Source: a virus
Reading direction: 5' to 3' (one strand)
Virus record (IMG/VR): IMGVR_UViG_3300027834_000005
Coordinates: 1 to 64,000 of that record
DNA: 64,000 bases
The position numbers and the translations under genes were made by a program. Of the stretch, positions 15,187-64,000 are shown piece after piece (within the stretch, counting starts at the first letter, position 1; every line of letters starts with the position of its first letter). The notes beneath the pieces are model-generated. The model was not told where the DNA came from and searched no databases. It was given only the letters and a program-made list of their open reading frames with translations.

Positions 15187-15525
15187 ATGAATATTACGAC
15201 AGCAATACAAAATGCATTAGACGACGTGTTCGGTCATTTACCCGCAAAACTTGGTGAACCTCTAATCAAAGAAGTCCATGACATGGCTGATGTTTTTTCT
15301 TTAACAGAAGAAGAGATTCTTGAGCATATCCAGCTTAAGAGAAAAGACGTGCCTGCGCTGTATAGCGATGCGCCAGCTGAAGATTACGTGGAGCCTAAAG
15401 ACAGAGTTAATCATTCTGCTGACGTCATTGCCGATATTGAGAAGTTGCGTGGTGATGACGGTGAAGAAGGCGAAACAGATGAACTTGATGATATGTTCAA
15501 AGGTCTGTTAGGTGATGATAAGTAA
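15187..15525 (+). CDS. Hypothetical acidic protein
   Basis: 112 residues, very acidic at the C-terminus (GDDGEEGETDELDDMFKGLLGDDK). A helical 'SLTEEEILEHIQLKRKDV' segment in the middle faintly recalls the DEDxF tail but is internal, so it is not counted. AAGGAAAA lies before the ATG. Not recognised. Confidence 0.66.
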   Translation: MNITTAIQNALDDVFGHLPAKLGEPLIKEVHDMADVFSLTEEEILEHIQLKRKDVPALYSDAPAEDYVEPKDRVNHSADVIADIEKLRGDDGEEGETDELDDMFKGLLGDDK

Positions 15526-16031
15526 TGACTATCGTCAGCTTGTCGTTATGGGAATCCTATGGTAGATTACCGTGGGATGCCATAACTTTCTGTACTGGTA
15601 ATAAGATTTCCACGTATAGCTTATATGGCGGTGAATTATTTGAGCACTATGAAACCTTCGAAAATGAAAAGTACATCCTTCATGTAAATAAATTGGCGTC
15701 TGGTTACGAGGTGCATCTCAAGGTAATCGGTACTGACACGACAAAATTAATTGTTAATCAGAGATACGATCATAATATGAGAATCGTGGCTAGTAACAAA
15801 ATTTTGGTTGAAGATCTAGCTATCATTAATACTATCAGATGTACATCTGACAAAGAACGAGAAGAGTCTGAAAAAGAACTTTTCGAACTGGCTCTGTCTG
15901 GTGTTACTGTGCCCCCTGAATACATTATAGAGAACGCTTTGGCGGATATCTATTACATGGACTCATGGACCAGATTTAAAGGATGGTTGACGTGTAAGTT
16001 CATAAACCCTATTAATAAGGTAGAACGTTAA
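15525..16031 (+). CDS. Long DEDxF-tail protein heading block B
   Basis: 168 residues. A unique beta-rich N-terminal domain (about 1-110), then 'ESEKELFELALSGVTVPPEYIIEN' matching the tail, followed by a further 35 residues with an aromatic stretch (YYMDSWTRFKGWLTCKF). The start overlaps the preceding stop by one base. Confidence 0.65.
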   Translation: MTIVSLSLWESYGRLPWDAITFCTGNKISTYSLYGGELFEHYETFENEKYILHVNKLASGYEVHLKVIGTDTTKLIVNQRYDHNMRIVASNKILVEDLAIINTIRCTSDKEREESEKELFELALSGVTVPPEYIIENALADIYYMDSWTRFKGWLTCKFINPINKVER

Positions 16032-16327
16032 TGGACGCTAGAATGGTAGCCAACGTAAAGGCTAAGAAAATATTTGAAGAGTTGGAAACTGGGACCAAGC
16101 TCATGGTATCCTGCATACGAGATAATAGACGAGTAGACAAATATGATATTGTGGAAGTGAGTGACGCTTCATACAACGATGATCTTATATGTATTAAACA
16201 GATAGAGGGCGTGTTCGATTATAGACCGTTTGTCGAAGACGAATACAATGAATTAAAAACTATACGTCTTGTGAGTCTGAAGGGTATGTCAGATGAAGAT
16301 ATATTTCTTCTAAGGTTGTCACTGTGA
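16031..16327 (+). CDS. DEDxF-tail protein, block B no. 1
   Basis: 98 residues. SH3-like head (ELETGTKLMVSCIRDNRRVDKYDIVEVSD) and tail MSDEDIFLLRLSL, which is the extreme C-terminus. Stop of the previous gene and start share one base. Confidence 0.72.
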   Translation: MDARMVANVKAKKIFEELETGTKLMVSCIRDNRRVDKYDIVEVSDASYNDDLICIKQIEGVFDYRPFVEDEYNELKTIRLVSLKGMSDEDIFLLRLSL

Positions 16328-16617
16328 TCAAAGTGATGAATCCTGAAGATTGTAAACGTTTGATATGCGTCCGTGCTCCTTATGCCATATACAGGGTCAA
16401 TGTTATCTATGACGTGGTAGATACAGGTCCTGCTAACGATGCCGATCATGATATCGAAATACGTATGCTTTCCGAAGACGGACTGACCTATACGTTTCAT
16501 GAAAGTGACATTGATCAGAGTGATGAATTCATGCATGATCGACCTAGTTTCTTCTTTTTCAAGGACATTACTGATATGTCAGATGAAGATGTATTCCATT
16601 TGAGATTATCCATATGA
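16324..16617 (+). CDS. DEDxF-tail protein, block B no. 2
   Basis: 97 residues; GTG start in a GTGA overlap (ATG 16333 possible). Head has RLICVRAP and NVIYDVVDT strands, then 'ESDIDQSDEF' and a Phe cluster FFFF before MSDEDVFHLRLSI at the C-terminus. Forms a subgroup with 16614 and 17174. Confidence 0.72.
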   Translation: MIKVMNPEDCKRLICVRAPYAIYRVNVIYDVVDTGPANDADHDIEIRMLSEDGLTYTFHESDIDQSDEFMHDRPSFFFFKDITDMSDEDVFHLRLSI

Positions 16618-16901
16618 GTAATCTAGATCGCGTATTGTGCGTCCAAGCTGGATCTTCAGGAAGGTTCACTTTCAAGAAGACATATGATGTGGTAGACGTG
16701 CATGTGACACGCTCACGTCACGAAGTATTATTCCGTAAATTTACAATAATGAGTGATGATGACACCGCATCCGAATTCTATGATGACGAGGACCTTGATC
16801 AGTCACAAGAAGTAATAAGGCATTTTTCTAATTTCGATTATTTCATGAATATATCCGGTATGACTGATGAAGACATATTCCAACATATGCTGAGTAATTA
16901 A
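16614..16901 (+). CDS. DEDxF-tail protein, block B no. 3
   Basis: 95 residues, ATGA overlap. RVLCVQAGSSG and KKTYDVVDVHV strands, 'DEDLDQSQEVI' then MTDEDIFQHMLSN. Aligns along its length with 17174, so they are duplicates that have diverged strongly. Confidence 0.72.
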   Translation: MSNLDRVLCVQAGSSGRFTFKKTYDVVDVHVTRSRHEVLFRKFTIMSDDDTASEFYDDEDLDQSQEVIRHFSNFDYFMNISGMTDEDIFQHMLSN

Positions 16902-16902
16902 T

Positions 16903-17172
16903 ATGACAGGTTACACGCCTAAAATCAACGACATTTTACGATGCCGATCAACCAATAGAGATGACAACGAAATCACAGTAGGTAAGTCATATAGAGTGAC
17001 TAAAGTTGAATATGGTGAGTTCTATTTTTCTTCCAATAAAGGAAGAACGATGAAGTATAATTCATGTTGCGTTAGTATTGGTTTTGATCTCATATATATG
17101 TTCAAGACTGAATTTGAGACCATAGATCATTTATCTGAAGAAGAGCAGTTTGAGATAAAGCTGAGCGTGTGA
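16903..17172 (+). CDS. DEDxF-tail protein, block B no. 4
   Basis: 89 residues. Head 'INDILRCRSTNRDDNEITVGKSYRVTKVEY' is the clearest block B example of the 'vGksYrV' strand; tail LSEEEQFEIKLSV ends the protein. One base separates it from the previous gene. Confidence 0.72.
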   Translation: MTGYTPKINDILRCRSTNRDDNEITVGKSYRVTKVEYGEFYFSSNKGRTMKYNSCCVSIGFDLIYMFKTEFETIDHLSEEEQFEIKLSV

Positions 17173-17173
17173 T

Positions 17174-17458
17174 ATGGAAGTAGGATATAAACTATTATGT
17201 GTGAACTCTGGGAATGGTATATCGGGTGGTGAATTCACCAAGAATAGAGTTTATGATGTTAATATTGTTGACTTAACAAGCACACCCACGTTGTATAGCT
17301 TTAGAATTATTGATGATGATGGTCATTCTGTGAAATTTGATGACATAGACGTAAATCAGAGTGTAGAGGTGATAAGAAAATACCCTAAACTCACGTTCTT
17401 TATGGACGTCACTGACATGTCAGAAGAAGACTTATTTACCTTTATATTGAGTAACTAA
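17174..17458 (+). CDS. DEDxF-tail protein, block B no. 5
   Basis: 94 residues. EVGYKLLCVNSGNG head, 'FTKNRVYDVNIVD', 'DDIDVNQSVEVIRKYPKLTFFMDVTDMSEEDLFTFILSN'-type ending shared with 16324 and 16614 (given here as the family ending of this subgroup). Confidence 0.72.
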   Translation: MEVGYKLLCVNSGNGISGGEFTKNRVYDVNIVDLTSTPTLYSFRIIDDDGHSVKFDDIDVNQSVEVIRKYPKLTFFMDVTDMSEEDLFTFILSN

Positions 17459-17459
17459 T

Positions 17460-17759
17460 ATGGACATAACAAATATATCGATTGGCAGTATATTATTATG
17501 TATTAGAACCACTGCGCCTAGGTGGTTCTCTATCGACAAGACGTATGAAGTATCTACGTCACGTCCTACAAGCGGTTATAGTTTTGGATGCTTAGTAATA
17601 TATGATGACCAAGATGATGATTGGGATATAAAAAACTACGTCATCGAATTGGCAGGGTCCCCATCTGAAATAGCCACGTTTGGTGACGAAAAATGTATAT
17701 TCATAGATATTACGAATATGACTGAAGAAGAAATATTCCTTTTTCGTCTATCTTATTGA
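17460..17759 (+). CDS. DEDxF-tail protein, block B no. 6
   Basis: 99 residues. ISIGSILLCIRTTAPRWFSI, then KTYEVSTSRP strand, a DDQDDDWD acidic turn, and tail MTEEEIFLFRLSY. It has an aromatic last residue where others have V, I, N or H. Confidence 0.72.
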   Translation: MDITNISIGSILLCIRTTAPRWFSIDKTYEVSTSRPTSGYSFGCLVIYDDQDDDWDIKNYVIELAGSPSEIATFGDEKCIFIDITNMTEEEIFLFRLSY

Positions 17760-17782
17760 CACTAAATTGAAAGGGTTGTATT

Positions 17783-18088
17783 ATGTTAGAACATATCAAA
17801 GAAGGCGATAAAGTACTGTGCGTACAAGCTGATATTCTTAAGCACATAGACGCTAGATTTGAGGTTGGTAAATTGTATAACGTATGTTGTGTGCGATTTG
17901 CTCCCAGTGGGAAAATCATGGTTAGTTTACAAAGTCCTTGTGGTAATGTGTTGACTTATAAAGAGAAAGATTTCACGTATGAATTACACCACGAAGACCC
18001 TCAATGCTATTATAAGTTTGCCATGCCTGAAAACTTTAATCAGGAAGAATTATTTGAGTTTATGTTGAGAGGAGGAAACGATGAATAA
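17783..18088 (+). CDS. DEDxF-tail protein, block B no. 7
   Basis: 101 residues behind AAAGGG. 'IKEGDKVLCVQADILKHIDA', 'FEVGKLYNVCCVRF', 'KEKDFTYELHHEDP', tail NQEELFEFMLRGGNDE. Unlike its neighbours it continues past the LS/LR position with GGNDE, partly because the next gene's start and ribosome site overlap it. Confidence 0.72.
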   Translation: MLEHIKEGDKVLCVQADILKHIDARFEVGKLYNVCCVRFAPSGKIMVSLQSPCGNVLTYKEKDFTYELHHEDPQCYYKFAMPENFNQEELFEFMLRGGNDE

Positions 18089-18359
18089 GGAATTATCCGT
18101 TGGAGACTTTATTATTTGTGACTGGGTAAGAGGTGGTACAACCATATATACCCTCAAGAAGCAGTATCAAATATTGTCTGTTTCAGATGGAGGATTCGAA
18201 CATACCTACATCGTTAGGAATAATGAAGAAACTCTCTTCGAAGTGTACAGCCAAGAAGTGGACGGCGGAAACAATGTGGCTGCGTATACAATGGCTACCT
18301 TCAGATCTGTTAAGAACATGACCAAAGAAGAATTATTTGAATTTATGTTGAGTCACTAG
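18081..18359 (+). CDS. DEDxF-tail protein, block B no. 8
   Basis: 92 residues; strong GAGGA before ATG 18081 lies inside the upstream gene. 'LSVGDFIICDWVRGG', 'YTLKKQYQILSVSDGG' and tail MTKEELFEFMLSH, nearly the same ELFEFML as its upstream neighbour, suggesting a recent duplication. Confidence 0.73.
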   Translation: MNKELSVGDFIICDWVRGGTTIYTLKKQYQILSVSDGGFEHTYIVRNNEETLFEVYSQEVDGGNNVAAYTMATFRSVKNMTKEELFEFMLSH

Positions 18360-18361
18360 CC

Positions 18362-18646
18362 ATGAAAGTAAAAGATGCCAGAGAATCCATGTTTGAGTTG
18401 AAAAAAGGATCATTCGTTATGTGTTTGTATGCCGTTTCAAGCAACGTTCTAGAAACTGGCAAGGTATACAAAGTATTGAGAAGTCCTATATGTATTAAGC
18501 CTGCTATGGAAGTATATATTGATGTTGGTGGAATCCCATATTCTTTTTCCGAAAGAGCATTCACTGGTGACCTTGACTCTGTACACGTAATCAATATAGA
18601 CCACATGGATGATGAAGAGATATTCATGTTAAGGCTGTCAGTATGA
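18362..18646 (+). CDS. DEDxF-tail protein, block B no. 9
   Basis: 94 residues. 'ELKKGSFVMCLYAVSS', 'LETGKVYKVLRSP', tail MDDEEIFMLRLSV. Last of the nine-gene run; followed in ATGA overlap by an unrelated larger gene. Confidence 0.72.
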   Translation: MKVKDARESMFELKKGSFVMCLYAVSSNVLETGKVYKVLRSPICIKPAMEVYIDVGGIPYSFSERAFTGDLDSVHVINIDHMDDEEIFMLRLSV

Positions 18647-19350
18647 AAACCAAATTAGCAATAGAAAAAGATAAAGAACGTGAACTGATCGTAGCCAAGT
18701 TCATCTATAAATTGAAAAGAATACATTACTTCGATGAGATACTCGATATCATAGCGGACCCTGAGAATGAATTTCTTTTGTTGTGTCAGCTACACGGGAG
18801 TAACTCTAGTACCTTAACGTTAGAAGAGTTACGTGAGAAGATCAAGACTTACGGTAAGCTTACTGTGACGTGGGATGAAAACTTTGGCTTCACGGAATAT
18901 GAGTCACAGTGGGGTCCACAAAAACATCCTCGTAACCGACATCCTAGATGGTCAAAGGAGTGCGATAAGTATGTGTCTCGTAAGCATTCTCAGTTTAGAG
19001 GTTGCATTAAGATTCTATACGAAAATAAAAATTATGAGTATGGTTTTGGGGACGTTAGTGATTCATTGGAACGCCTTGGCCTTTATACTGGCACAGGTAG
19101 TAGTGGTCCTAGTTGTTCACGATACTATTTCTATACATATGCATTAGACTACACGTTCATCTATGCTAAGCTGCGTAAGTTCCGCCGTGAGTACTTCGCC
19201 GAAGAAGAAAGGTTGAAACTTGTGCACTTCGAAGACACATTGGCAGGAAAACCCTTGACAAAGAACTGTATTAGGTTTATGATGCCACTTTTAAATTCAA
19301 AGAAGATTCTTTTGCCGAATCCTAACCACGACAGGAAATATGTGAGATGA
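18643..19350 (+). CDS. Hypothetical protein, paralogue of 14446
   Basis: 235 residues, basic, Tyr/Arg-rich. No tail. The middle 'ESQWGPQKHPRNRHPRWSKE' replaces the Trp/Asp-rich stretch of its paralogue. Function unknown; a nucleic-acid-binding role is possible from charge only. Confidence 0.7.
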   Translation: MKTKLAIEKDKERELIVAKFIYKLKRIHYFDEILDIIADPENEFLLLCQLHGSNSSTLTLEELREKIKTYGKLTVTWDENFGFTEYESQWGPQKHPRNRHPRWSKECDKYVSRKHSQFRGCIKILYENKNYEYGFGDVSDSLERLGLYTGTGSSGPSCSRYYFYTYALDYTFIYAKLRKFRREYFAEEERLKLVHFEDTLAGKPLTKNCIRFMMPLLNSKKILLPNPNHDRKYVR

Positions 19351-19742: not shown

Positions 19743-19968
19743 TGAAAAAGCAGACGAGTGTATTATTTCAGATTGTATCATCATGGTAATGAACGGTGAT
19801 GAAAAAGTGTCCAGAGTTCCTGCTGGTACGCCTTTTCCTGTTGGATGTGTTGTTAATTGGGAAGATCTTGGTGATAATCGTGAACGATTCACTATGAGAG
19901 ATGAGAACGACGTTGAAAGAACTATCGAAGTGATGTGTGAAGGTTTTATTGATGTCGTGTTTGCATGA
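19735..19968 (+). CDS. Hypothetical small protein
   Basis: 77 residues, beta-rich (CIIMVMNGDEKVSRVPAGTPFPVGCVVNW), starting 8 bases inside the previous gene. Not recognised. Confidence 0.62.
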   Translation: MISEKADECIISDCIIMVMNGDEKVSRVPAGTPFPVGCVVNWEDLGDNRERFTMRDENDVERTIEVMCEGFIDVVFA

Positions 19969-20279
19969 CCCGCTCAGTTAGTTACTACTCTAGAGCCTAT
20001 ATACCTAAAAAGCCAGATATACACTCGGCTAGGTCAGTGTATAATAATGGTCAGTTATTATGTGTGTACTCTCATAATGAAGACTTCATTAAAGGTAAAG
20101 TGTACACGGGTGAGTCTAAGCAGACTACAGGTGATATATTTTATATTCCTGAAGTGAACAATATTATGTACGGGGGTCCACATCTAGACACTGATAGGAT
20201 AGGCAATGATTATCCAATATTTATTGTCGTTGATGGTTTGGACGAAGAAGATATTTTTCAATTATTAATGATGTATTAG
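19965..20279 (+). CDS. DEDxF-tail protein (isolated copy)
   Basis: 104 residues. 'NGQLLCVYSHNEDFIKGKVYTGES' is the family head; tail LDEEDIFQLLMMY. An N-terminal basic/Tyr-rich extension of about 25 residues is specific to this copy. Confidence 0.7.
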   Translation: MTRSVSYYSRAYIPKKPDIHSARSVYNNGQLLCVYSHNEDFIKGKVYTGESKQTTGDIFYIPEVNNIMYGGPHLDTDRIGNDYPIFIVVDGLDEEDIFQLLMMY

Positions 20280-20288: not shown

Positions 20289-20705
20289 ATGAACACAGAT
20301 TACGACAAATACATATATGTCGGTGCAAAATTCGTTTGTGTTGATATATCCCATCGCTACGGTGCCGTACCTCGTAACTTGAAATATAATTACACTGACG
20401 GTATTGTGTATGAGGTTACAGACGCTGTTAGGACGCCTGTGTATTGCCAAGACGAGGGAATAAGTCTTTACCTTTCAAGTGACAAAGGTAGAAAGCAGTG
20501 GAATCCTAAAACCCTATTAAATGCTAAGCCGTCTCCTGTCACTGAGCGTGGTTCTGAAGGTACATACATGTATCCGGTGATGATACCAATAGATGACTTC
20601 CCAGAAGAGCACAAGTTCTTCATAGAGCTTGGAGGTGATCCAGTTCAAGTGGTTAAAGATCATTACGAAGAGATCATGGGGTGTGTTCGTGTTCAAGAAT
20701 CCTAA
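20289..20705 (+). CDS. DEDxF-tail protein, extended
   Basis: 138 residues behind AGGAGGT, one of the strongest ribosome sites of the window. 'VGAKFVCVDISHRYG' head, 'YTDGIVYEVTDAV', tail FPEEHKFFIELGGDPVQVVKDHYEEIM with a helical extension as in block D. Confidence 0.7.
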   Translation: MNTDYDKYIYVGAKFVCVDISHRYGAVPRNLKYNYTDGIVYEVTDAVRTPVYCQDEGISLYLSSDKGRKQWNPKTLLNAKPSPVTERGSEGTYMYPVMIPIDDFPEEHKFFIELGGDPVQVVKDHYEEIMGCVRVQES

Positions 20706-21549: not shown

Positions 21550-22012
21550 TTATATTCTTACTATTGAGCTGGTCCCTAAGACTAGCTGGTATTCCAATGT
21601 TAGGTCTAATGTAACCTCTACGCAGTGGAGTAAGATCAAAAAAGATCGAGCCACGTTAGCCGGTTACAAATGTGAGATCTGTAATGGTACTGGTTTCGAC
21701 CAAGGCATAAGATGGGCAGTAGAGTGCCATGAGATATGGGAGTATGATGATAAGAATCACATACAGAAGCTCAAATCTATGACGTCTCTATGTCCTCGCT
21801 GCCACGAAGTAAAGCATATTGGTCTTGCTGCCGTAAGAGGTAAGCTAGAGTATGCCACACAGCACTTCATGGCGGTTAACGGGGTTTCCAGTGATGAGGC
21901 TGAAGACTACATCATTGGGTGCTTCGAAGAGCATGCAGAGAGAAGTAAGCACGAATGGGCATTAGATTTGGATCACCTTGAAGAAAGATACAACATTAAG
22001 GTTAAAAAGTAA
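21542..22012 (+). CDS. HNH-like endonuclease protein
   Basis: 156 residues. A zinc-bound HNH arrangement is visible: CEIC near residue 46, 'AVECHEIWEYDD' with the candidate catalytic His, and LCPRCHEVKH downstream. This spacing resembles HNH proteins described in large phages and bacteria, acting as DNA nicking or homing enzymes. ATG 21542 overlaps the membrane gene by 8 bases. Target unknown. Confidence 0.72.
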   Translation: MSNYILTIELVPKTSWYSNVRSNVTSTQWSKIKKDRATLAGYKCEICNGTGFDQGIRWAVECHEIWEYDDKNHIQKLKSMTSLCPRCHEVKHIGLAAVRGKLEYATQHFMAVNGVSSDEAEDYIIGCFEEHAERSKHEWALDLDHLEERYNIKVKK

Positions 22013-22332
22013 TGAACATAATGGATGATTTGGACATCTGCATGGATGATTTGAACATATGTCCTGTGTGTGTGCCAATAGAGTCCGTGTACGAAGGCAT
22101 GAAGCTAATAGGCATCTCTGATTCCCTCCTATTCGAAGTCACCAAAGGTAAGATTTATGAGATTACTCGTATAACACCGATGTCAATTTACGTGCAGTGC
22201 GATGATGATATGGAATGCGGATACGGGTGGGATAAAAGAACGATATGTGGGCAAGCAAGAAACGTCTGGTACTATCCAATAGACATGATTGAAGATGAAG
22301 CGATGAAATTTCTAATAACTTTGTCAATGTAG
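22012..22332 (+). CDS. DEDxF-tail protein (divergent)
   Basis: 106 residues. Opens with a duplicated short motif (MDDLDIC MDDLNIC), then 'VYEGMKLIGISD', 'VTKGKIYEITRI', and the tail IEDEAMKFLITLSM, with the F shifted by one relative to the consensus. Confidence 0.65.
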   Translation: MNIMDDLDICMDDLNICPVCVPIESVYEGMKLIGISDSLLFEVTKGKIYEITRITPMSIYVQCDDDMECGYGWDKRTICGQARNVWYYPIDMIEDEAMKFLITLSM

Positions 22333-22974: not shown

Positions 22975-23003
22975 TTGACAAAAACATTATGTTGTGGGAT
23001 AAT
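22975..23003 (+). promoter_or_regulatory. Sigma-70-like promoter for the AAA-M41 protease
   Basis: TTGACA (22975-22980), 17-bp spacer, GATAAT (22998-23003), 29 bases before ATG 23032. It also argues against an in-frame start at 22975. Confidence 0.75.
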
Positions 23004-23031
23004 ACGCAGCAAGAGACCAACGGGGTTTATA

Positions 23032-52260: not shown

Positions 52261-52272
52261 AGGAATATATGA

Positions 52273-53321: not shown

Positions 53322-53323
53322 GG

Positions 53324-54963: not shown

Positions 54964-54968
54964 TCATC

Positions 54969-55665: not shown

Positions 55666-56041
55666 TCAATTCGGTAGTTTAATGCAAGACCATACTATGG
55701 TAGTAGGGGATAAGTTCCTCTGCTACTATGACCTGAACATGGTATATGACCGTAACCCTAACTCATGGTTCGGAAAGACATGCACCCTCACTGAGGTGAA
55801 GGATATGTTTTTTGAGACAGAGTTAAGCTTCTCATTGGATAATAACGGGTGCAAAACTTATGCGTCTGCACGTACGCTTGATGGCGTGATTGACGGTCAC
55901 GAAGATCTATTCCTCCTCATACCATTAGAACTTATAACACAGAACGAAGAAGATGCATTCTTCATCGCATTAAGTGACGACTGGAAGAAAGTAGCTAAAG
56001 AAATAAGAAAGCGTTACAAGTTATATAAGCTTCATTGTTGA
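55652..56041 (+). CDS. DEDxF-tail protein, block D
   Basis: 129 residues. 'VVGDKFLCYYDLNMVYDRNPNSWFGKTCTLTEV', tail QNEEDAFFIALSDDWKKVAKEIRKRYK. Followed by a promoter. Confidence 0.7.
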   Translation: MFKDNQFGSLMQDHTMVVGDKFLCYYDLNMVYDRNPNSWFGKTCTLTEVKDMFFETELSFSLDNNGCKTYASARTLDGVIDGHEDLFLLIPLELITQNEEDAFFIALSDDWKKVAKEIRKRYKLYKLHC

Positions 56042-56066
56042 CTCCAATACTATTATGTTGTAAAAT
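56038..56066 (+). promoter_or_regulatory. Sigma-70-like promoter
   Basis: TTGACT (56038-56043), 17 bp, TAAAAT (56061-56066), overlapping the upstream stop codon. Confidence 0.62.
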
Positions 56067-56092
56067 GTCAGTATTAATACATAGGCACTTAC

Positions 56093-56413
56093 ATGATAGA
56101 ACTTATTAGTGAAAACTCCGTATCGGAAACCAACAAGTACTTAATCTCCTATGACTCATGGGAAGCCGTAAATGGAGAGCACGTAACTCTATTGCCACGT
56201 ACTGAATTTCCAACTCTAATATTTGAATTTGACCAAGATAAGATCACTGCGCCTGCTGTGCACATAAAGGTTGCCCGTGGTGAGAGACCACTAATTAATC
56301 ATTCTGCTAAAGGTGAAAGGATCATACAGTTCATCAGGACCGATACTTTGTCGGATGAAGATAAGTTCTTCATTAAAATGTCCGGTGGCTATAATGAGAA
56401 GATAGACGTATGA
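56093..56413 (+). CDS. DEDxF-tail protein, block D
   Basis: 106 residues; weak ribosome site. Head 'SETNKYLISYDSWEAVNGEHVTLLPRTEF', 'HIKVARGERPLINHS', tail LSDEDKFFIKMSGGYNEKIDV. Confidence 0.7.
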   Translation: MIELISENSVSETNKYLISYDSWEAVNGEHVTLLPRTEFPTLIFEFDQDKITAPAVHIKVARGERPLINHSAKGERIIQFIRTDTLSDEDKFFIKMSGGYNEKIDV

Positions 56414-56847
56414 ATTATAATCGCATACTCGTAGAAAATCTCTCATTGGGTGATAAGTTACTCTGTGTAAGAGATGACATAATAGAAAGTAGTACTTCCG
56501 GTGACTCTGCATGGACAGGTAAAGTCGTTACTGTCACCAGAATACATAACGTTAGATGGGGTGCCGGTGCCGGTGATTCAGATGTGGTACGCGATGTGCG
56601 GTTGACTTCAGACATTCTATATGACGATGTTGTCGTGGATGAGTTTCAAATGAACGGCGAGAAAAGATTCTATCGTGTACCTAATCAAGCTTACGGAGAC
56701 AAAATGGTATTCATAAACTATGAAGATATATCTGATATTGATAAATTTGACATAGCTTTATCTGGTAGTGATAGTGATGTGATCGGGCAGGCATATGAAT
56801 CTTGGTTAGAAGGTAACCCATACGCTAAAGACAGGACAAGTGACTAA
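56410..56847 (+). CDS. DEDxF-tail protein, block D
   Basis: 145 residues. 'SLGDKLLCVRDDIIESSTSGDSAWTGKVVTVTRI', tail ISDIDKFDIALSGSDSDVIGQAYESWLEG. A clear 'W.GK..tV' head as in 52273-55652. Confidence 0.72.
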   Translation: MNYNRILVENLSLGDKLLCVRDDIIESSTSGDSAWTGKVVTVTRIHNVRWGAGAGDSDVVRDVRLTSDILYDDVVVDEFQMNGEKRFYRVPNQAYGDKMVFINYEDISDIDKFDIALSGSDSDVIGQAYESWLEGNPYAKDRTSD

Positions 56848-57161
56848 TGATAGACGTAACAACCCCAGAAGATTTCATGGTAGATGGCAATCTATTCCGT
56901 TGTGTATACGCGGACGGCGCAGGCGAATGTTTACGTGACACTACGTTCATTGTTGAACGTCATGGATGTGAAGATTTTGAAGTGGATCTTAGAGGCTACC
57001 ATGATCGCGGAAGTCTAACAATGACTCACGAACAATCACTTGGCGGACAAGGCTATCAATATGCAGATGAGCCATGTAAGATCTATTTCGTAAAAAATGA
57101 TGTTATATTGTCTGAAGAAGACAAGTTTGAACTATCTCTTAAGCATGGGTGGACATGGTGA
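56847..57161 (+). CDS. DEDxF-tail protein, LKHG subtype
   Basis: 104 residues. 'DGNLFRCVYADGAGECLRDTTFIVERH', tail LSEEDKFELSLKHGWTW. A MORN-type tail on a non-MORN head. Confidence 0.7.
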   Translation: MIDVTTPEDFMVDGNLFRCVYADGAGECLRDTTFIVERHGCEDFEVDLRGYHDRGSLTMTHEQSLGGQGYQYADEPCKIYFVKNDVILSEEDKFELSLKHGWTW

Positions 57162-57478
57162 AATATTGCGAGAATTTAGATGACTTACGAGGAAGAAGAG
57201 TCGTGTGTACCTTATGCGAAGGTGCCAGAGGTGATGTTGGGTTATTAGGTAATCTTTTCTATGTTACTGCGAGTTGGTCTGGTGGAGAACGGGAACCTTT
57301 CCTCACCTTTAGATGCGTTAACAGCAGTAACATACTCACTATGTCTTTGCCTACCGCTACTGGAAATCTTCTCTATCACTATCACACGGAATCATTGACA
57401 ATGAGGTTCACTAAGCTCTGCGACATGACGGATGAAGATAATTTCGAAATTAAGTTGAAGGGTGGTAGAACATCATGA
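57149..57478 (+). CDS. DEDxF-tail protein, LKGG subtype
   Basis: 109 residues (ATG 57155 possible). 'RGRRVVCTLCEGARGDVGLLGNLFYVTASW', tail MTDEDNFEIKLKGGRTS. Confidence 0.69.
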   Translation: MDMVKYCENLDDLRGRRVVCTLCEGARGDVGLLGNLFYVTASWSGGEREPFLTFRCVNSSNILTMSLPTATGNLLYHYHTESLTMRFTKLCDMTDEDNFEIKLKGGRTS

Positions 57479-57897
57479 CTATATCTCGCGTAGACGATAG
57501 AACAATGGTTAAGTTTGTAGACGAAAACGGTTTGCTACAGGGCTACGTATATCACTTCTCTAACGGTCACTGCACAGACAGACTACATTACATTGATAAT
57601 GTATGCGTGGGTTTACAACTTAAATGGTACACAGGCACTGATACCTTGTACATGGCATACATATATGCTAGAGGATGCATGACTGGCGAAGCTATCATGT
57701 TTAATAGAGACGGTTCCATACATTCCCATAATGTTTGGGATGATGATGATAACACCATATGCAATTTAGACGGTTTTCCATCCAAAGAAGATAAATTCGA
57801 ACTCACATTAAAACATGGTAACATAGATTGGTTACCAGAAAACACGCTAGATATTAAGCCGCCAAAAAACAGGACTGATATACATGGACCTCTTTGA
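57475..57897 (+). CDS. MORN-repeat DEDxF-tail protein 4
   Basis: 140 residues. 'ENGLLQGYVYHFSNGHCTDRLHYID', 'MTGEAIMFNRDGSIHSHNVWDDDD', tail PSKEDKFELTLKHGNIDWLPEN plus a short basic extension. Confidence 0.71.
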   Translation: MTISRVDDRTMVKFVDENGLLQGYVYHFSNGHCTDRLHYIDNVCVGLQLKWYTGTDTLYMAYIYARGCMTGEAIMFNRDGSIHSHNVWDDDDNTICNLDGFPSKEDKFELTLKHGNIDWLPENTLDIKPPKNRTDIHGPL

Positions 57898-58204
57898 TTC
57901 AAAAAACATACCGGAAGATCGTAGATACGTCATAGTTCAAGACGATTTATGTGACTTCATAGGTGATGTGTGGACTTTACATAAGGTTATTACTAGTGGT
58001 GATCGAGAATATTTCAGTTTCATCAGAGATACCCCAAATAAAGAAAAAACTAGGGAATTCGTAGAAGAGCATTTACGCGGTGAGACTTCTATAGGATTAG
58101 ACACGGACACTAGATTACAATTGGTGGCCGAGTCAAGTATATCCGATGAGGATAAGTTTTACATTGCTTTCAAAGGTTACAGCAAAATAGACGTTGACTC
58201 GTAA
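57884..58204 (+). CDS. DEDxF-tail protein, block D
   Basis: 106 residues. 'DRRYVIVQDDLCDFIGDVWTLHKVI', 'EEHLRGETSIGLDTDTRLQLVAE', tail ISDEDKFYIAFKGYSKIDVDS. Confidence 0.69.
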   Translation: MDLFDSKNIPEDRRYVIVQDDLCDFIGDVWTLHKVITSGDREYFSFIRDTPNKEKTREFVEEHLRGETSIGLDTDTRLQLVAESSISDEDKFYIAFKGYSKIDVDS

Positions 58205-58222
58205 CCCCACATAGAGTATAAT
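58194..58222 (+). promoter_or_regulatory. Sigma-70-like promoter abutting a start codon
   Basis: TTGACT (58194-58199), 17 bp, TATAAT (58217-58222). Only three bases separate the -10 from ATG 58226, so RNA starting here would be leaderless or lack the start. Confidence 0.72.
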
Positions 58223-58225
58223 ACC

Positions 58226-58552
58226 ATGGTAAGAGAAGAATTGCTAGCCTATAAACGTGGCGATATTTTAGTAACTGTGCATGACACAGCTAAACGACGC
58301 TATGGAAGTCTTTACACCATTGAATATTGTTTCGAAGATGTGTTAACTGGTGAGTACATCTATTCATTAAGAAGTGAATCTGGTCACGTACTCAAACTTA
58401 AACATTCGTACATCAATGGCACTAAGGAACTAACAAGTTTTTCAAGTGCCAGAGGCATTCAGTTAGTGATTAAGAACGAACTTACTGAAGAAGAACAGTT
58501 CCTTGGTGAGCTTTGCGGATGGAATAGGGAGGCTATGGGCTTATGCGAGTAA
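58226..58552 (+). CDS. DEDxF-tail protein, LSGW subtype
   Basis: 108 residues. The opening 'REELLAYKRGDILVTVHD' aligns with 'RPELLQYRDGDELLCVRS' of 59703, which supports ATG 58226 despite the promoter just before it. Tail LTEEEQFLGELCGWNREAMGLCE. Confidence 0.69.
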   Translation: MVREELLAYKRGDILVTVHDTAKRRYGSLYTIEYCFEDVLTGEYIYSLRSESGHVLKLKHSYINGTKELTSFSSARGIQLVIKNELTEEEQFLGELCGWNREAMGLCE

Positions 58553-58884
58553 TGAATAAAGATGACCTTATCGTAGATAATAAATTCGTAGTTACCTTTC
58601 ACAAAAGAGGTAAGGCAGACGGCGAAGTGTGGATTTATAAACGTGCGCATTCACCTTGTAAAACTGACGAAGAAATCAAATATGTATTTAAACGATTCAC
58701 AGCCAATGGCGTCATCTTAGAAACTCATCGAATGACATTCAGAAGCTTTACTGGTGGCGATGAAATAGCTGTCAGAGATTTAGAGATAAGTCCCATAGAC
58801 ACCATTACCGATGAAGACATTTTCTTCATGAAGATGCAAGGTGTGAATACAAGCAGAGTGGAGCAATTCCGTGGAAAAGAATGA
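58543..58884 (+). CDS. DEDxF-tail protein, block D
   Basis: 113 residues (ATG 58552 possible). 'IVDNKFVVTFHKRGKADGEVWIYKRAH', tail ITDEDIFFMKMQGVNTSRVEQFRGKE. Confidence 0.69.
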   Translation: MRVMNKDDLIVDNKFVVTFHKRGKADGEVWIYKRAHSPCKTDEEIKYVFKRFTANGVILETHRMTFRSFTGGDEIAVRDLEISPIDTITDEDIFFMKMQGVNTSRVEQFRGKE

Positions 58885-59299
58885 TTTTAATTTAGACTAC
58901 GGGAACCTTTGTACTGTAGAAGGATTGCTTAAGGGTCATCAATATTTGATAATTAAAGATAGGAAAGACCTACATTCATCTATAGGTGAGTGTAGCGAGG
59001 GTCGTATTGTCGAATATAGTAGTGTTATAGACAGCCACGCAGGAGAGTATGAGTTTTCTATTGTAGGTGGTAATGATCATACCTACTCTACTGTACCGGA
59101 GATGAACGGACGTAAGCCGTGGTATATTGGAAGTGCCCGAAACTCTAGAAACTACGTGGTATATGTCCCTTTGCACTTAATACCTAAAGACGTATTGTTC
59201 CACTGTGCGTTATCCGGTGACTACACTGAACTATGTGAACAACTTTATTACGAATGGAGTATGTGGTGGGAAAAAGAAATAAAGCCAAAACGCGATTAA
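58871..59299 (+). CDS. DEDxF-tail protein, block D
   Basis: 142 residues, GTG start. 'LLKGHQYLIIKDRKDLHSSIGECSEGRIVEYS', tail IPKDVLFHCALSGDYTELCEQLYYEWSMWWEKE, with a Trp-rich helix after the LSG. Confidence 0.68.
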   Translation: MEKNDFNLDYGNLCTVEGLLKGHQYLIIKDRKDLHSSIGECSEGRIVEYSSVIDSHAGEYEFSIVGGNDHTYSTVPEMNGRKPWYIGSARNSRNYVVYVPLHLIPKDVLFHCALSGDYTELCEQLYYEWSMWWEKEIKPKRD

Positions 59300-59712
59300 C
59301 CAAGCATCGAAGAGGCGGATTAGAATGGACAGAAGATGACCTTGGTCGTAAACAAGGTGAGCTACTAAGATTCCATAACAGCATAACCATACTTAGAGAG
59401 CACTACGTAGATAACTTATTACATGGTATGACTACTAGGTGTGATTACTTTGGTAATCGAACGGCAACGACCACTTATGTCAATGGTGAGTTACATGGGA
59501 GAAAAACCATGTACATGAGAGACGGAAGAGTTAAGGCTGTGCGTCATTTTTATTTCGGTAAGCTACACGGTGAACTTGTAACATACATCGGCACGAATAT
59601 GGAACACGCTGTATATGATAATGGATTTAAAATACACGGTCTTCACATGCCTTTATCTGAAGAAGATAAGTTTGAATTGGCACTTAAGTATGAAGGATTA
59701 CAATGGGCATAA
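59266..59712 (+). CDS. MORN-repeat DEDxF-tail protein 5
   Basis: 148 residues from GTG 59266 (GGAG 6 bases upstream; ATG 59254 possible). Four repeats, the most regular set: 'GRKQGELLRFHNSI', 'LLHGMTTRCDYFG', 'ELHGRKTMYMRDGR', 'KLHGELVTYIGT'; tail LSEEDKFELALKYEGLQWA. Confidence 0.7.
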   Translation: MGKRNKAKTRLTKHRRGGLEWTEDDLGRKQGELLRFHNSITILREHYVDNLLHGMTTRCDYFGNRTATTTYVNGELHGRKTMYMRDGRVKAVRHFYFGKLHGELVTYIGTNMEHAVYDNGFKIHGLHMPLSEEDKFELALKYEGLQWA

Positions 59713-59999
59713 GACCAGAGCTACTACAATATAGAGACGGAGATGAGCTACTTTGTGTGCGTAGTAATGACAAAGATTTTGATGTCAGTGACACCTACGT
59801 GGTGTCGGGAGGATACCTCAATGATTCACTCGATAGAGTATTTACTATCGTCACGGACTACACTACGTGGCGAATAGTAGAAAACTACTTGAACGGCACT
59901 AATATCATGAAGGATGATACTAGTGTGTTGATGGTGAGAAAGGATTTACTCACTGAAGAAGATAAATTTCATGGAGAACTTTCAGGATGGAAAGTATAA
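59703..59999 (+). CDS. DEDxF-tail protein, LSGW subtype
   Basis: 98 residues. 'YRDGDELLCVRSNDKDFDVSDTYVVSGG', 'VENYLNGTNIMKDDTSVLMVRKDL' (58226 has 'HSYINGTKEL...IQLVIKNEL'), tail LTEEDKFHGELSGWKV. A duplicate pair with 58226 separated by three genes. Confidence 0.71.
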   Translation: MGIRPELLQYRDGDELLCVRSNDKDFDVSDTYVVSGGYLNDSLDRVFTIVTDYTTWRIVENYLNGTNIMKDDTSVLMVRKDLLTEEDKFHGELSGWKV

Positions 60000-60418
60000 A
60001 TTTCGAAGAACTAAGATCACATAACCTATCAGAATCTAAAGTTGGTGATAAATTCCTATGTGTGTTCCACAAGGGTAAATGGTACAGTCACGACCAATTA
60101 GAAAGTAACGTAGTAACTTTCAAAGAGGTGAAGCTTTACGAGTACATGAAGAAAGGCAAAAAAGTAAGTGTGGTTGAGAGAATGACGTTAGAAATTAATG
60201 GCAGAGACCATCATATGTATAGCGACACTCAGTTAGTAGTGACTGCCGGTGATAAGAGAAGAGGCGACTATGCACGTAACGATTACGTCACAGCGTTCAT
60301 TCCACTGGAACAGCTTACCCAAGAAGCACTATTTGAATCAACTCTATGCGGTGACTATAAAGAGATGTCTAAGCAGTTGAGATCGGAGTTTATAAAATGG
60401 AAAAAGACAGCAAATTAG
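59987..60418 (+). CDS. DEDxF-tail protein, block D
   Basis: 143 residues. 'KVGDKFLCVFHKGKWYSHDQLESNVVTFKEV', tail LTQEALFESTLCGDYKEMSKQLRSEFIKW, similar after LCG to 58871. Confidence 0.7.
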   Translation: MESINFEELRSHNLSESKVGDKFLCVFHKGKWYSHDQLESNVVTFKEVKLYEYMKKGKKVSVVERMTLEINGRDHHMYSDTQLVVTAGDKRRGDYARNDYVTAFIPLEQLTQEALFESTLCGDYKEMSKQLRSEFIKWKKTAN

Positions 60419-60798
60419 ATTACTATAAGAATCTTCCTTACGGGCGTTTAGTGACTGATGATGATTTATACATCGGAAACAAATTCCTAGTGTACCGAGA
60501 CAATGAACATGACACATGCCGTAGAGGACACGTTATCATACTTGATGGACTGATAGACTTCGACGGAGACTACACGTTCGAAATGTGTGAAACTCCTGAC
60601 GACATGTCCGTGATGTTCATAAGTAAGGATGAGGCAAACGGCAACGGTGACACGTACGGAGAAAATGTTCTGCTTGTTCCAATGGACCTAATACTTGAAG
60701 AAGATAAGTTCATTGGTGTATTATCCGGTGACTGGGAATATATATGTGACGTGATGGACAAGGCAAAAGAAAACCATAAGAAGAAATTAAAAGGGTAG
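60397..60798 (+). CDS. DEDxF-tail protein, block D
   Basis: 133 residues. 'KNLPYGRLVTDDDLYIGNKFLVYRDNEHD' and 'DFDGDYTFEM', matching the truncated gene at the right edge; tail ILEEDKFIGVLSGDWEYICDVMDKAKE. Confidence 0.71.
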   Translation: MEKDSKLDYYKNLPYGRLVTDDDLYIGNKFLVYRDNEHDTCRRGHVIILDGLIDFDGDYTFEMCETPDDMSVMFISKDEANGNGDTYGENVLLVPMDLILEEDKFIGVLSGDWEYICDVMDKAKENHKKKLKG

Positions 60799-60801
60799 TA
60801 G

Positions 60802-61131
60802 ATGAATATTTTCAAGGATGTTGAAGACATACGCAATTTAAGAAAAACTAGGTTCTCCACCCTTGAGTCGGGCGATGAAGTGTTATGTGTGAATGGACTA
60901 GACATAGGTAGCATCCTCACGATTGAGAAGCACACCCACAATACATTCATCAGAATGCCTAATAACAAATTGATTGCCGTCAACTACGCTACCCTATGCA
61001 CTGATTACTTCGCTCATATACCAACAAAGTACTTATGCGGCGAAGAAACGTTCTACGCTACCTTATCAAACGACTGGTCAGGCTCTGCTAATAGAATATT
61101 TAATGAATATATGAAGGTGGTTTTAACATGA
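60802..61131 (+). CDS. DEDxF-tail protein, block D
   Basis: 109 residues. 'ESGDEVLCVNGLDIGSILTIEKHTHN', tail LCGEETFYATLSNDWSGSANRIFNEYMK. Confidence 0.7.
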   Translation: MNIFKDVEDIRNLRKTRFSTLESGDEVLCVNGLDIGSILTIEKHTHNTFIRMPNNKLIAVNYATLCTDYFAHIPTKYLCGEETFYATLSNDWSGSANRIFNEYMKVVLT

Positions 61132-61436
61132 TAGTGTACCCTACTAAAGATAACATAGAACTAAAAACGCGACTAGTTTGTGTAAAAGATTCAGGTAATG
61201 AATACATGAATAACAGAGCTTCCATATCTAGTATGCCAGATTTCGTATACGAAGAAGCGTATGGTATCATATTCGATGATGCTTGGGCCGAAGGTAAGGT
61301 TAGCTTAGAGTGTATGAGTGGAAAAGCTCTTCCTAATGGGAGAGAGATGCTTTTCGCCCTAGAAGAATTCTTAGACGACGAAGATCTATTTTACCTGTCA
61401 CTTGAAAATGGCGTGTCTTTGGGTAAACCCATATAG
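61128..61436 (+). CDS. DEDxF-tail protein, block D
   Basis: 102 residues. 'ELKTRLVCVKDSGNEYMNNRASISSM', tail LDDEDLFYLSLENGVSLGKPI. Last gene before a promoter. Confidence 0.69.
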   Translation: MIVYPTKDNIELKTRLVCVKDSGNEYMNNRASISSMPDFVYEEAYGIIFDDAWAEGKVSLECMSGKALPNGREMLFALEEFLDDEDLFYLSLENGVSLGKPI

Positions 61437-61440
61437 CCCA

Positions 61441-61469
61441 TTGACAATATCACTAAGAACGAGTATAGT
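61441..61469 (+). promoter_or_regulatory. Sigma-70-like promoter
   Basis: TTGACA (61441-61446), 17 bp, TATAGT (61464-61469), 24 bases before ATG 61493, which has TTGGAG upstream. Confidence 0.74.
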
Positions 61470-61492
61470 GTTCTCTTTTGGAGTCATAACAT

Positions 61493-61831
61493 ATGTACGT
61501 ACTTGAGAAAGACCTATACAAAGGCAATCGATTTTTGTGCATCCAAGACACTATGTATGATTTTAAAAATCTAATTATAGAGGTGAACGAAATCCATATT
61601 GAGTACGGTACAAGATCAATACTACTTGACCACCCTAAGTACCCAATGCCTATAGCCATTACATACGAAGGTATGAAAAGTAGACATTATTACAATACTT
61701 TAGTACTCGTGCCAATAGACAAGTTAGTACTACCAGAAAAAATGGAGTTCGAAGCTTTACTAACTAACGATTGGGAAGAAGTGACTTCCTACGTTATCTC
61801 CAACGTTCACACTTGCATAAAGGACTTTTAA
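61493..61831 (+). CDS. DEDxF-tail protein, block D
   Basis: 112 residues. 'YKGNRFLCIQDTMYDFKNLIIEVNEI', variant tail VLPEKMEFEALLTNDWEEVTSYVISN, in which one extra residue precedes the Phe. Confidence 0.67.
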   Translation: MYVLEKDLYKGNRFLCIQDTMYDFKNLIIEVNEIHIEYGTRSILLDHPKYPMPIAITYEGMKSRHYYNTLVLVPIDKLVLPEKMEFEALLTNDWEEVTSYVISNVHTCIKDF

Positions 61832-61834
61832 CAT

Positions 61835-62290
61835 ATGCTTACTCTCGTTGAAGAAGCCCTTTGTGAAATGTACATAGACGAAGACGGTAGACGTCAAGGT
61901 GCGACTACGCATTTCTATGACTTCGGTGAAAAAAAAGCCATACACAAGATCATGGAATTTAAAGACGACGTTGTTAATGGCGCGTACATGTTGTTCAGGA
62001 TTGATGGCTCCATTAAATTCAACCATAGCTACGTTAATGGGTTCAAATGCGGGGAACAAACAACATGGAGAAGTAACGGCGTAATCTTCAGAAGTGAAAT
62101 GTGCTCTTCAATCTCTGTGTTGCATGGCGAAGCAGTTGAAAGAGATAGAAACGGGTACGTAAATAGCCACTGCATATATGCTAATGGCGTGGTAGTTGAA
62201 CGCCTTGACGATAGCGAACTCACCGACGAAGATAAGTTTGAGCTTAGGCTTAAGTACGGAGACATTGGTTTCCTAAAGCACTTCAAGTAG
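61835..62290 (+). CDS. MORN-repeat DEDxF-tail protein 6
   Basis: 151 residues. 'DGRRQGATTHFYDFGEKKAIHKIMEF', 'VVNGAYMLFRIDGSIKFNHSY', 'FKCGEQTTWRSNGVIF', 'VLHGEAVERDRNGYVNSH', tail LTDEDKFELRLKYGDIGFLKHFK. Confidence 0.72.
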   Translation: MLTLVEEALCEMYIDEDGRRQGATTHFYDFGEKKAIHKIMEFKDDVVNGAYMLFRIDGSIKFNHSYVNGFKCGEQTTWRSNGVIFRSEMCSSISVLHGEAVERDRNGYVNSHCIYANGVVVERLDDSELTDEDKFELRLKYGDIGFLKHFK

Positions 62291-62298
62291 GAACGTAT

Positions 62299-62619
62299 AT
62301 GAGACAAGTTGATCGTGATGACATAGTTACAGGTACGAAGTTCTTATTGGTAGCTAAGCACACTAATGATATTGTCATTGGCGAGGTAATTTCAAAGTCT
62401 AGAAGTAATTTTTACTACAAGATTGGAAACGGTAGAGTTTACGTGTTGGGTTTCACCACTACGGAGGTTTTGCCTGTGCCCGATTTGAGGGTCATACCAT
62501 TAGACTATATGGATTGGTATGTGGAACAGGGCGAAATCAGAGACCAAGACGTTTTCCTCGCTAAGTTAAGTGGTGACTGGAACGACGTAGTAGATAAGAT
62601 AACAGGAAGAAATCTATGA
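62299..62619 (+). CDS. DEDxF-tail protein, block D
   Basis: 106 residues. 'VTGTKFLLVAKHTNDIVIGEVISKSR', tail IRDQDVFLAKLSGDWNDVVDKITGRNL. Behind GTAGGAACG. Confidence 0.71.
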   Translation: MRQVDRDDIVTGTKFLLVAKHTNDIVIGEVISKSRSNFYYKIGNGRVYVLGFTTTEVLPVPDLRVIPLDYMDWYVEQGEIRDQDVFLAKLSGDWNDVVDKITGRNL

Positions 62620-63002
62620 CCATGCGTATTGTTACTTCTAGGGACCTAATCAATGAAGGAATGGAGCTTCTCCTTTTTTCATTCACTGATAAGGAGAAGC
62701 ACTCACACGGCATATTCGTAGAGAAGTCTGTATCTATGTGGACTGAAGGCCCAGAGTATATAATAGATATCACCAGAAAAGACGGTAACACTACAAAGTT
62801 TGGTGCTAAGAAACATGTATTAATGGGTGTCGTACCTTACTCAGAAAAAGATGGCATCAAGAAGTTCTTGGTTGCTATACCAGTTTCAAGTTTAGATGAG
62901 AACGACCTGTTTCTGTTAAAACTAAGTAATAATGCTGATCATATAAGAGCTAAGACAAAAAAGCTTATCAACTCATATTCAATTGAACACTGGGTAGACT
63001 AA
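62616..63002 (+). CDS. DEDxF-tail protein, block D
   Basis: 128 residues (ATG 62622 possible). 'NEGMELLLFSFTDKEKHSHGIFVEKSV', tail LDENDLFLLKLSNNADHIRAKTKKLINS. Confidence 0.7.
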   Translation: MTMRIVTSRDLINEGMELLLFSFTDKEKHSHGIFVEKSVSMWTEGPEYIIDITRKDGNTTKFGAKKHVLMGVVPYSEKDGIKKFLVAIPVSSLDENDLFLLKLSNNADHIRAKTKKLINSYSIEHWVD

Positions 63003-63433
63003 TGTCGGAATTAAAACGCATAGTAGAAAGAAGTGGCGGAATCATAGAAACGTTCCAAGTTGATGAAACTGGCTCGAAACAGGGAGTCAGTGTTAGGACG
63101 TTCGAGAACGGAAAGCCATGGCTTATATCTTATTACCAAAATGGGTTCTTACATGGCGAATTCATAGAGCTGCACGAAGATGGGTACATACGTGAGCACT
63201 CTATGTACTCTAATGGTAAACAGTGCGGCGAGATGGTATTAAAAAGAGATGACAGGGTAGTACGCCATGAAATATGGTATAGTGCAGAATTGGTCCATAC
63301 ATTCATGTATCTTGGATCTATTTTCTGTGAACCAACAGAAGAAACCAAGTTTGAAATGACACTTAAATACGGCACCAAGTGGTTACCCAAGAGGACATAT
63401 GAAGAGTTATCAGCTGAATTTGAACAGTCCTAA
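63002..63433 (+). CDS. MORN-repeat DEDxF-tail protein 7
   Basis: 143 residues. 'TGSKQGVSVRTFENGKPWLISYYQNG', 'FLHGEFIELHEDGYIREHSMYSNG', 'QCGEMVLKRDDRVVRHEIW', tail PTEETKFEMTLKYGTKWLPKRTYEEL. Confidence 0.71.
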   Translation: MSELKRIVERSGGIIETFQVDETGSKQGVSVRTFENGKPWLISYYQNGFLHGEFIELHEDGYIREHSMYSNGKQCGEMVLKRDDRVVRHEIWYSAELVHTFMYLGSIFCEPTEETKFEMTLKYGTKWLPKRTYEELSAEFEQS

Positions 63434-63722
63434 TTATAGAACTATAAATAAAAAAACATTAGTTCAAGATCTACCTCATAACACAATGCTTATCGGCATA
63501 GATAAGCATAATAGTGGGGATGCGATACACATACAGATTGGCGAAGATGGACGTCATATGTGTAACGGTTCGGTATGCTCTAACCTGCATCTTGATAATG
63601 ATAGATACGCATATGTACCTGAATCTAGCCTAAGTGAAGAAGCCGTGTTCGAAGCTAAGTTGCGTGGTGATTGGAGTGAAGTGGCAATTGAAGCTGCTTC
63701 ACTATACTACCGTGTCTATTAA
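63399..63722 (+). CDS. DEDxF-tail protein, block D
   Basis: 107 residues from ATG 63399, overlapping the upstream gene by 35 bases with GAGGA only three bases away; TTG 63420 is an alternative start. Tail LSEEAVFEAKLRGDWSEVAIEAASLYYRVY. Confidence 0.63.
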   Translation: MKSYQLNLNSPNYRTINKKTLVQDLPHNTMLIGIDKHNSGDAIHIQIGEDGRHMCNGSVCSNLHLDNDRYAYVPESSLSEEAVFEAKLRGDWSEVAIEAASLYYRVY

Positions 63723-64000
63723 TCCGTATATGAATCTTCCATTCGACCATCTCATATTCACTACGGATATGGAAGTGGGGAAGGAAATATTAGTGTACCG
63801 TCATGATGATCACGCTGGTGACAGGTATTCTTTTAAGGCTAATATATTCAGAGTACATGATGAATGTGATAGTGATGGTGATTATGATATGCAGCGCATG
63901 ATTGCCTCCCCAGATAACGTGATGGATCAGAAATTCAGCTTTGTTAGACTAGATGAATATAATGGCAACAAACTATGGATGGATTGCATTACGTTATTAG
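63712..64000 (+). CDS. DEDxF-tail family protein, truncated by the window edge
   Basis: Open frame from GTG 63712 (ATG 63730 possible) to the last base, 96 codons with no stop. 'NPYMNLPFDHLIF', 'MEVGKEILVYRHDDHAGDRYSF' and 'DSDGDYDMQRMIASPDN' align with the head of 60397, so it is a family member whose tail lies beyond the window. Confidence 0.68.
   Translation, partial: MSINPYMNLPFDHLIFTTDMEVGKEILVYRHDDHAGDRYSFKANIFRVHDECDSDGDYDMQRMIASPDNVMDQKFSFVRLDEYNGNKLWMDCITLL

Follow-up and report, generated by a model that had tools for sequence, protein, structure and literature searches.

Why a single phage should give dozens of small proteins with differing heads much the same C-terminal segment is the question raised by the first 64,000 bases of the 347,232-base IMG/VR virus record IMGVR_UViG_3300027834_000005 (hereafter, the window; the remaining 283 kb of the record were also analysed). 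The record belongs to a large myophage with matches to portal and tail-sheath families, whose portal is 59.6% identical to those of Paride, PA5oct and MIJ3 and more distant from those of Atu_ph07, Phosso and Vibrio 2.275.O; a closer relative (82% in the portal) is a 6.7-kb fragment. The original prediction, made from the letters of the window, had noticed that small genes in three blocks (referred to as B, C and D) and in scattered places share a "DEDxF" tail, called this an extraordinary expansion, and proposed that the tail may dock the proteins on one hub. We find this tail attached to at least two mutually unrelated heads, i.e., an SH3/Tudor-like barrel and MORN repeats, and tentatively read it as a common docking helix.

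For detection of the tail, a hidden Markov model (HMM) was trained on each block, tested on the other blocks and then iterated across the whole record, with approximately 48,000 shuffled and reversed sequences as decoys, a strict cut-off of E < 0.01 and a loose cut-off of E < 5 for counts within the window. The HMM from block C only recovered six of the nine genes in B and 20 in D, and the HMM from block D only recovered eight of the nine in B and 12 in C, each above every decoy. The iterated profile (25 residues) retrieved 94 open reading frames (ORFs) at E < 0.01 across the record, all on the + strand and none on the minus strand, and not one of the ~48,000 decoys, showing that the common signature is real. 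At the loose cut-off, the window holds 79 tail genes, of which nine belong to block B, 24 to C and 38 to D and eight are scattered, in good agreement with the 9, 24, ~39 and ~9 counted originally; tail genes occupy 34% of the window, matching the earlier estimate of more than a third, and 9.8% of the record. Block D, originally delimited as 48990–64000, is indeed an array but has no end at 64,000, as it runs on to ~84.2 kb, and outliers lie near 201, 206–208 and 225 kb of the record. Moreover, an independent, motif-free method (de novo clustering of C-terminal 20-mers from a sample of small proteins) placed 130 of 420 sampled proteins in one cluster, compared with a maximum of four after shuffling.

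Alignment gave [LIM]-[ST]-[DE]-E-[DE]-x-F-x-x-x-L as the better form of the motif, with [ST]-[DE]-E-[DE]-x-F-x3-L as its constant core. Ser/Thr at position 9, an acid at 10, Glu at 11, an acid at 12, Phe at 14 and Leu at 18 are constant in all groups, while positions 15–17 and 19–22 vary by group, and each group has flanks of its own (M-S...LS for B, LGG for C, LSGDW for D and LKYG for the MORN-headed members). The core of the motif as first described was thereby borne out, whereas its S/G/K-G after the Leu is specific to subgroups. Synonymous codons are mixed at the conserved Leu, Asp and Phe positions, indicating that selection acts on the protein; the codon of Glu11 leans to GAA beyond background. 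The tail usually lies near the C-terminus, with a median of 12 residues after the conserved Leu and up to 55 residues following. AlphaFold predicted it as a helix both in an SH3-like model (residues 88–95) and in a MORN model (residues 81–91), and on a 100-degree helix wheel E11, F14 and L18 would fall within 60 degrees, i.e., on one face. Two other roles were considered and dropped. A ribosome site for the next gene is contradicted by the excessive distance between the tail DNA and that gene and by the variation at synonymous positions, and cleavage by a T4-type protease is at odds with the Asp that ~40% of members have at position 10, which conflicts with a Leu/Ile-x-Glu site.

The heads, in turn, fall into at least two kinds. 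In hhalign comparisons of head profiles, B matched C with 95% probability and D matched both more weakly (57–68%), while the MORN heads reached 0.1–0.3% with any other group. The AlphaFold model of one block C member consists of a small beta barrel plus the tail helix (mean predicted local distance difference test (pLDDT) 86.3, predicted template modelling score (pTM) 0.76), and that of one MORN member of a MORN sheet plus the tail helix (mean pLDDT 89.1, pTM 0.75). The top Foldseek matches of the barrel were Tudor, chromo and SH3 folds, these being weak (E of at least 0.2 in PDB, 5.7e-3 in BFVD). No Pfam family matched the SH3-like heads, and weak profile matches (best 2.9e-4) linked the barrel-like heads of blocks B and C, and some of those in D, to small phage proteins of unnamed PHROGs (e.g., phrog_6261, phrog_11067 and phrog_4927), which have no annotated function or known tail of this kind. 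MORN_2 (PF07661) was matched by 10 of the 22 MORN-headed members (best E = 1.9e-14), single MORN_2 repeats scoring under the family cut-off; the MORN region of SET7/9 was the best PDB sequence match (E = 0.045), and MORN proteins led the viral fold search. The heads of these ~22 members thus resemble MORN_2 repeat proteins, while the DEDxF helix is absent from the MORN_2 model. Searches with single members against 50,697 phage records returned weak MORN matches or nothing.

Tail scores between groups were ~25, compared with 12.9 for non-member C-termini, whereas SH3-versus-MORN head scores (24–27) stayed near the non-member level of 23.2, and head and tail similarity were uncorrelated (rho of –0.03 in B and 0.04 in C). 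It follows that the tail is a module shared between unrelated heads: the SH3/Tudor-like barrel of B, C and, more weakly, D, and the MORN_2 repeats. The earlier statement that the heads vary holds for the MORN set, which is unrelated to the others, but the heads of B, C and (weaker) D form one SH3-like family.

Within the blocks, the genes overlap or nearly abut (gaps of at most 23 nucleotides (nt) in block B). Sites that agree with the sigma-70-type promoter in 11 or all 12 positions and have a 17-base spacer number 64 in the record versus 4–6 in shuffles, an approximately tenfold excess, and are mostly on the + strand and ahead of small-gene clusters. A perfect TTGACA-N17-TATAAT site (29733–29761, +) lies 31 nt ahead of the ORF leading into block C, with an intrinsic-terminator-like hairpin (29695–29718, +) just upstream of that block, and a second perfect site lies at the end of block C (38223–38251, +). 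Sites with 11 of 12 positions were found at the start of block D (48895–48923, +) and within it at 51231–51259 (+; 23 nt ahead of the next gene), 58194–58222 (+) and 61441–61469 (+). Since gap-free operons are located behind near-perfect sigma-70 promoters, the array genes are probably early, and the promoter-like sites suggest early transcription by the host polymerase. In permutation tests, head similarity was higher between adjacent genes in C (p = 0.04), D (p = 0.008) and the MORN set (p = 0.0005), which is the mark of tandem duplication.

The location of these operons also bears on whether the tail might be a capsid-targeting or processing signal, the members being internal proteins that are injected. 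The internal proteins of phage T4, which have a short targeting sequence in common, are a precedent for such a signal. T4-type signals are nevertheless N-terminal and cleaved, unlike the present tail, and the arrays follow sigma-70-type promoters at a distance from the genes for portal and sheath. In favour of capsid targeting, a large number of the virion proteins of jumbo phages lack an assigned function (PMC6102473); on balance, we consider it very improbable.

The reading towards which we lean, with a confidence slightly short of even, is that a shared helix, serving for docking or assembly, unites early, fast-diversifying small binding proteins. The array would then be an early-expressed repertoire of approximately 95–105 small two-module binding proteins, in which the head module (SH3/Tudor-like barrel or MORN sheet) would diversify fast by tandem duplication and bind varied targets. 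The tail module, as one constant amphipathic helix, would dock all members on the same partner via its invariant face (E11, F14 and L18), and this common partner could be either a hub encoded by the phage or the tails of fellow members. As such, the repertoire might act on many host or competitor proteins via one shared assembly. The docking idea of the original prediction gains from the tail being a module on unrelated folds with E11, F14 and L18 on one face of the predicted helix; the hub itself we infer.

Several observations weigh against such a docking repertoire. The HMM from block B only transferred poorly (0 in C and 3 in D), and block B lacked the adjacency signal (p = 0.44, permutation). 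The SH3-like model had no Foldseek match below E = 0.001, leaving fold resemblance as the sole pointer to binding by the heads. Ser/Thr followed by three acidic residues would also suit ordinary helix N-capping, and the tails of other phages differ (see below), so that a conserved target surface need not be implied. Finally, structure prediction of members alone, as the original prediction had suggested, yielded the helix in both folds, but the SH3-like model packs it beside the body with a pLDDT of 95–96, the highest in that model, as for a core helix.

The confident placement of the tail beside the SH3-like body is just as compatible with a core or capping helix. It is quite possible, though we remain doubtful, that the tail is a plain structural helix, forming a cap over the core or open edge of a small beta domain. 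In this view, the founder gene would already have had the helix, recombination within the array would have joined it a single time to a MORN protein, and the needs of the fold would have preserved it; there would then be no hub, only runaway tandem duplication in a hyperplastic region. Besides the confident placement and the N-cap pattern, this would account for the group-specific hydrophobic positions 15, 16 and 20–25 (as for packing on each head), the greater likeness of adjacent genes in three of the four groups, and the unrelated conserved segments in the arrays of related phages. It sits less easily with the sameness of the E11/F14/L18 face on two folds that are unrelated and would be expected to pack through different surfaces, with the lack of co-variation between head and tail similarity in B and C, and with the occurrence of the tail in members that have 40–55 residues beyond it. 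Docking and structural helix are not firmly separated: the module occurs on different folds with one face maintained, yet the model packs the helix confidently.

De novo C-terminal clustering revealed similar arrays of small proteins, with dissimilar heads and different tails, in five of seven other large phages scanned, while two IMG/VR giants (289 kb and 342 kb) yielded no such array by this clustering. Sets were picked by eye from the clusters and then scored, the counts being approximate: Atu_ph07 has ~59 genes with "SDLLPI" plus nine with "YxEIAPVC", RAS14 has 22 with "YLxxYDF" plus five, XacN1 has 12 with "GEFMEFLxDY", Paride has 11 with "ILHLQxxTH" (156.5–161.5 kb), and Vibrio 2.275.O has three sets of 5–8 genes (98.9–112.3 kb), one ending in KPNQRRRGIG. 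Only 0–1 decoys passed in 20-fold shuffles. The shared segment is not terminal in Atu_ph07, RAS14 and Paride but located 15–40 residues before the end, and in some of the sets it may be the conserved core of one fold. All proteins checked in these arrays were annotated as hypothetical only, and head homology to the present arrays was tested for and not found. Constant-tail arrays were not mentioned in the papers searched on Atu_ph07 and MIJ3, nor retrieved by keyword search, in a limited literature check. Within the Vibrio 2.275.O array, seven proteins (98,992–103,604) combine dissimilar heads with a near-exact KPNQRRRGIG end and a shared [LI]LSGD-like segment upstream; in Paride, a repeat region annotated as CRISPR (clustered regularly interspaced short palindromic repeats; 158,126–158,490) lies inside the small-protein array.

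The DEDxF tail profile itself had no match in nine named phage relatives, in 33 IMG/VR relatives or in a further 2.5 Mb of loci, viral and genome contig collections gave no match to degenerate patterns of the tail DNA, and relatives sought via SPFH and ligase were absent from the viral contig collection, these searches being limited by the short profile and by the lack of a close relative with the array region among the sequences searched. One Vibrio 2.275.O tail (LPDEDQVTLTLLG) resembles the DEDxF tail (hhalign 77.7%, P = 1.9e-5). Judging from the sequences compared, the tail family is phage-specific and related jumbo phages carry other tails, which speaks against a single host target common to all and in favour of a partner encoded by the phage, of self-assembly or of a structural function. 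By extension, many jumbo phages might encode fast-diverging early small-protein arrays with a phage-specific constant tail that plugs all members into one phage-encoded assembly, as a counterpart of F-box-type adaptors in which the tail, not the heads, defines the lineage; we regard this generalisation as unlikely.

The same comparison bears on the FtsH-like protease, one of the partners considered originally. It is encoded at 22975–24966 (+) within the same region, and its Pfam matches (Peptidase_M41, 6.4e-17; ClpB_D2-small; AAA) indicate an unusual FtsH-like arrangement; it is a candidate partner only by co-occurrence. If the tail were a delivery or degradation signal, the proteins would be handed to this AAA + M41 machine as substrates or adaptors, and an M41 domain is also present in Paride. 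Atu_ph07, XacN1, RAS14 and Vibrio 2.275.O, however, have constant-tail arrays and no M41 match, and the present tail is often internal rather than terminal. Of the six phages tested, the present one and Paride alone have M41, which weakens the protease as a general hub, and we judge a delivery or degradation signal improbable.

Among known systems, the ~35 zinc-ribbon copies of Bacillus phage G, called an unprecedented expansion (PMC7824862), are alike in being many small, lineage-restricted paralogues of one jumbo phage with unknown function. The present family has nearly three times as many copies, and its tail spans unrelated head folds rather than being one domain copied. With ~95 copies versus 35 (PMC7824862), the expansion may be called extraordinary in number, although arrays of this kind are not unique to the present phage. 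The greater likeness of neighbours that marks lineage-specific tandem expansion is seen in C, D and the MORN set and not in B. Poxvirus ankyrin/F-box (PRANC) proteins offer a parallel, as a large family in a virus in which the repeat heads vary and a single C-terminal module is conserved; that module reportedly docks on the SCF ubiquitin ligase (PMC9414399, PMC4353913). This is an analogy of layout only, given that bacteria have no ubiquitin ligase of that kind and that the present proteins have no F-box; no F-box/PRANC Pfam match was found in the SH3-like or MORN members scanned. RAP80 was among the best PDB sequence matches of the tail profile (E = 0.04–0.24), its ubiquitin-interacting motif being similar in that a stretch of acidic residues precedes a short helix bearing a bulky hydrophobic residue and a Leu. 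A ubiquitin-interacting motif, in which the acidic residues lead into a hydrophobic-x-x-Ala-x-x-x-Ser helix, was considered for the tail and dropped, as the defining Ala is found in 7 of 98 members, the defining Ser in 3 of 98, and both in one.

One tail-sharing repertoire without a match to a named family takes up one third of the window and one tenth of the record. Should the tail be a docking module, a single pull-down could explain dozens of phage dark-matter proteins together; should it be only structural, a large share of the ORFans in these genomes would be reduced to a few expanded families. C-terminal clustering could also be used to detect similar repertoires elsewhere among jumbo phages.

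At the level of single genes, block B (16031–18646, +) comprises nine small genes, starting at 16031, 16324, 16614, 16903, 17174, 17460, 17783, 18081 and 18362, all detected by the tail HMM at E < 0.01. They have SH3-like heads and mostly stop directly after the DEDxFxxxLSx tail, the 17783 gene being slightly longer. Block C (30064–38233, +) has 24 tail genes among 28 packed ORFs, with SH3-like heads and [LI]G-G-x-x-[AS]-L tails; 23 of them score at E < 0.02, and 36162–36473 is weak. A macro-domain gene without the tail (36460–36918) also lies within this block. The window part of block D (48939–64000, +) contains ~38 tail genes, in which SH3-like and MORN heads are mixed and the tails are of the LSGDW or LKYG type. 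It opens with four longer genes (starting at 48939, 49624, 50154 and 50745; 48939–51239, +) in which the tail lies ~30–55 residues from the end; those at 49624 and 50745 score at E < 1e-4, and those at 48939 and 50154 are weak.

MORN-headed members of block D, identified by tail HMM and MORN alignment and all on the + strand, include 51282–51581 (LTNEDRFELALK), 54380–54673 (ITEEEKFHYSLKYG), 57475–57897 (SKEDKFELTLKHG), 59254–59712 (LSEEDKFELALKYEG), 61835–62290 (LTDEDKFELRLKYG) and 63002–63433 (PTEETKFEMTLKYG; E = 0.024), as well as 53715–54056, in which the tail is degenerate (DDVEKFEYALKFEG; weak, E = 4). A scattered MORN-headed member (12380–12769, +; PLTEELKFLLSIQG; E = 0.024, MORN alignment) has a MORN_2 repeat at 12512–12559. 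The tail HMM further identified scattered genes at 19965–20279 (+; LDEEDIFQLLMMY) and 20289–20705 (+; FPEEHKFFIELGG), a weak one with an SH3-like head at 22012–22332 (+; IEDEAMKFLITLSM; E = 2.1), and two with a PxxxM extension after the tail at 25850–26233 (+; E = 0.24) and 26247–26648 (+; TDEDIFELTLKYG).

Two similar proteins of 223 and 235 residues (14446–15117 and 18643–19350) show a faint F-x-x-x-L-[SA]-G near the end and, like 7224–7592, are possibly very distant tail carriers. The protein encoded at 44201–46075 has phage relatives only in Vibrio phages and one uncultured phage (30–32% identity over most of its length), one of these relatives being annotated as SPFH/band 7. The largest open frame of the record encodes 3,999 residues and is located on the minus strand at 125,461–137,460.

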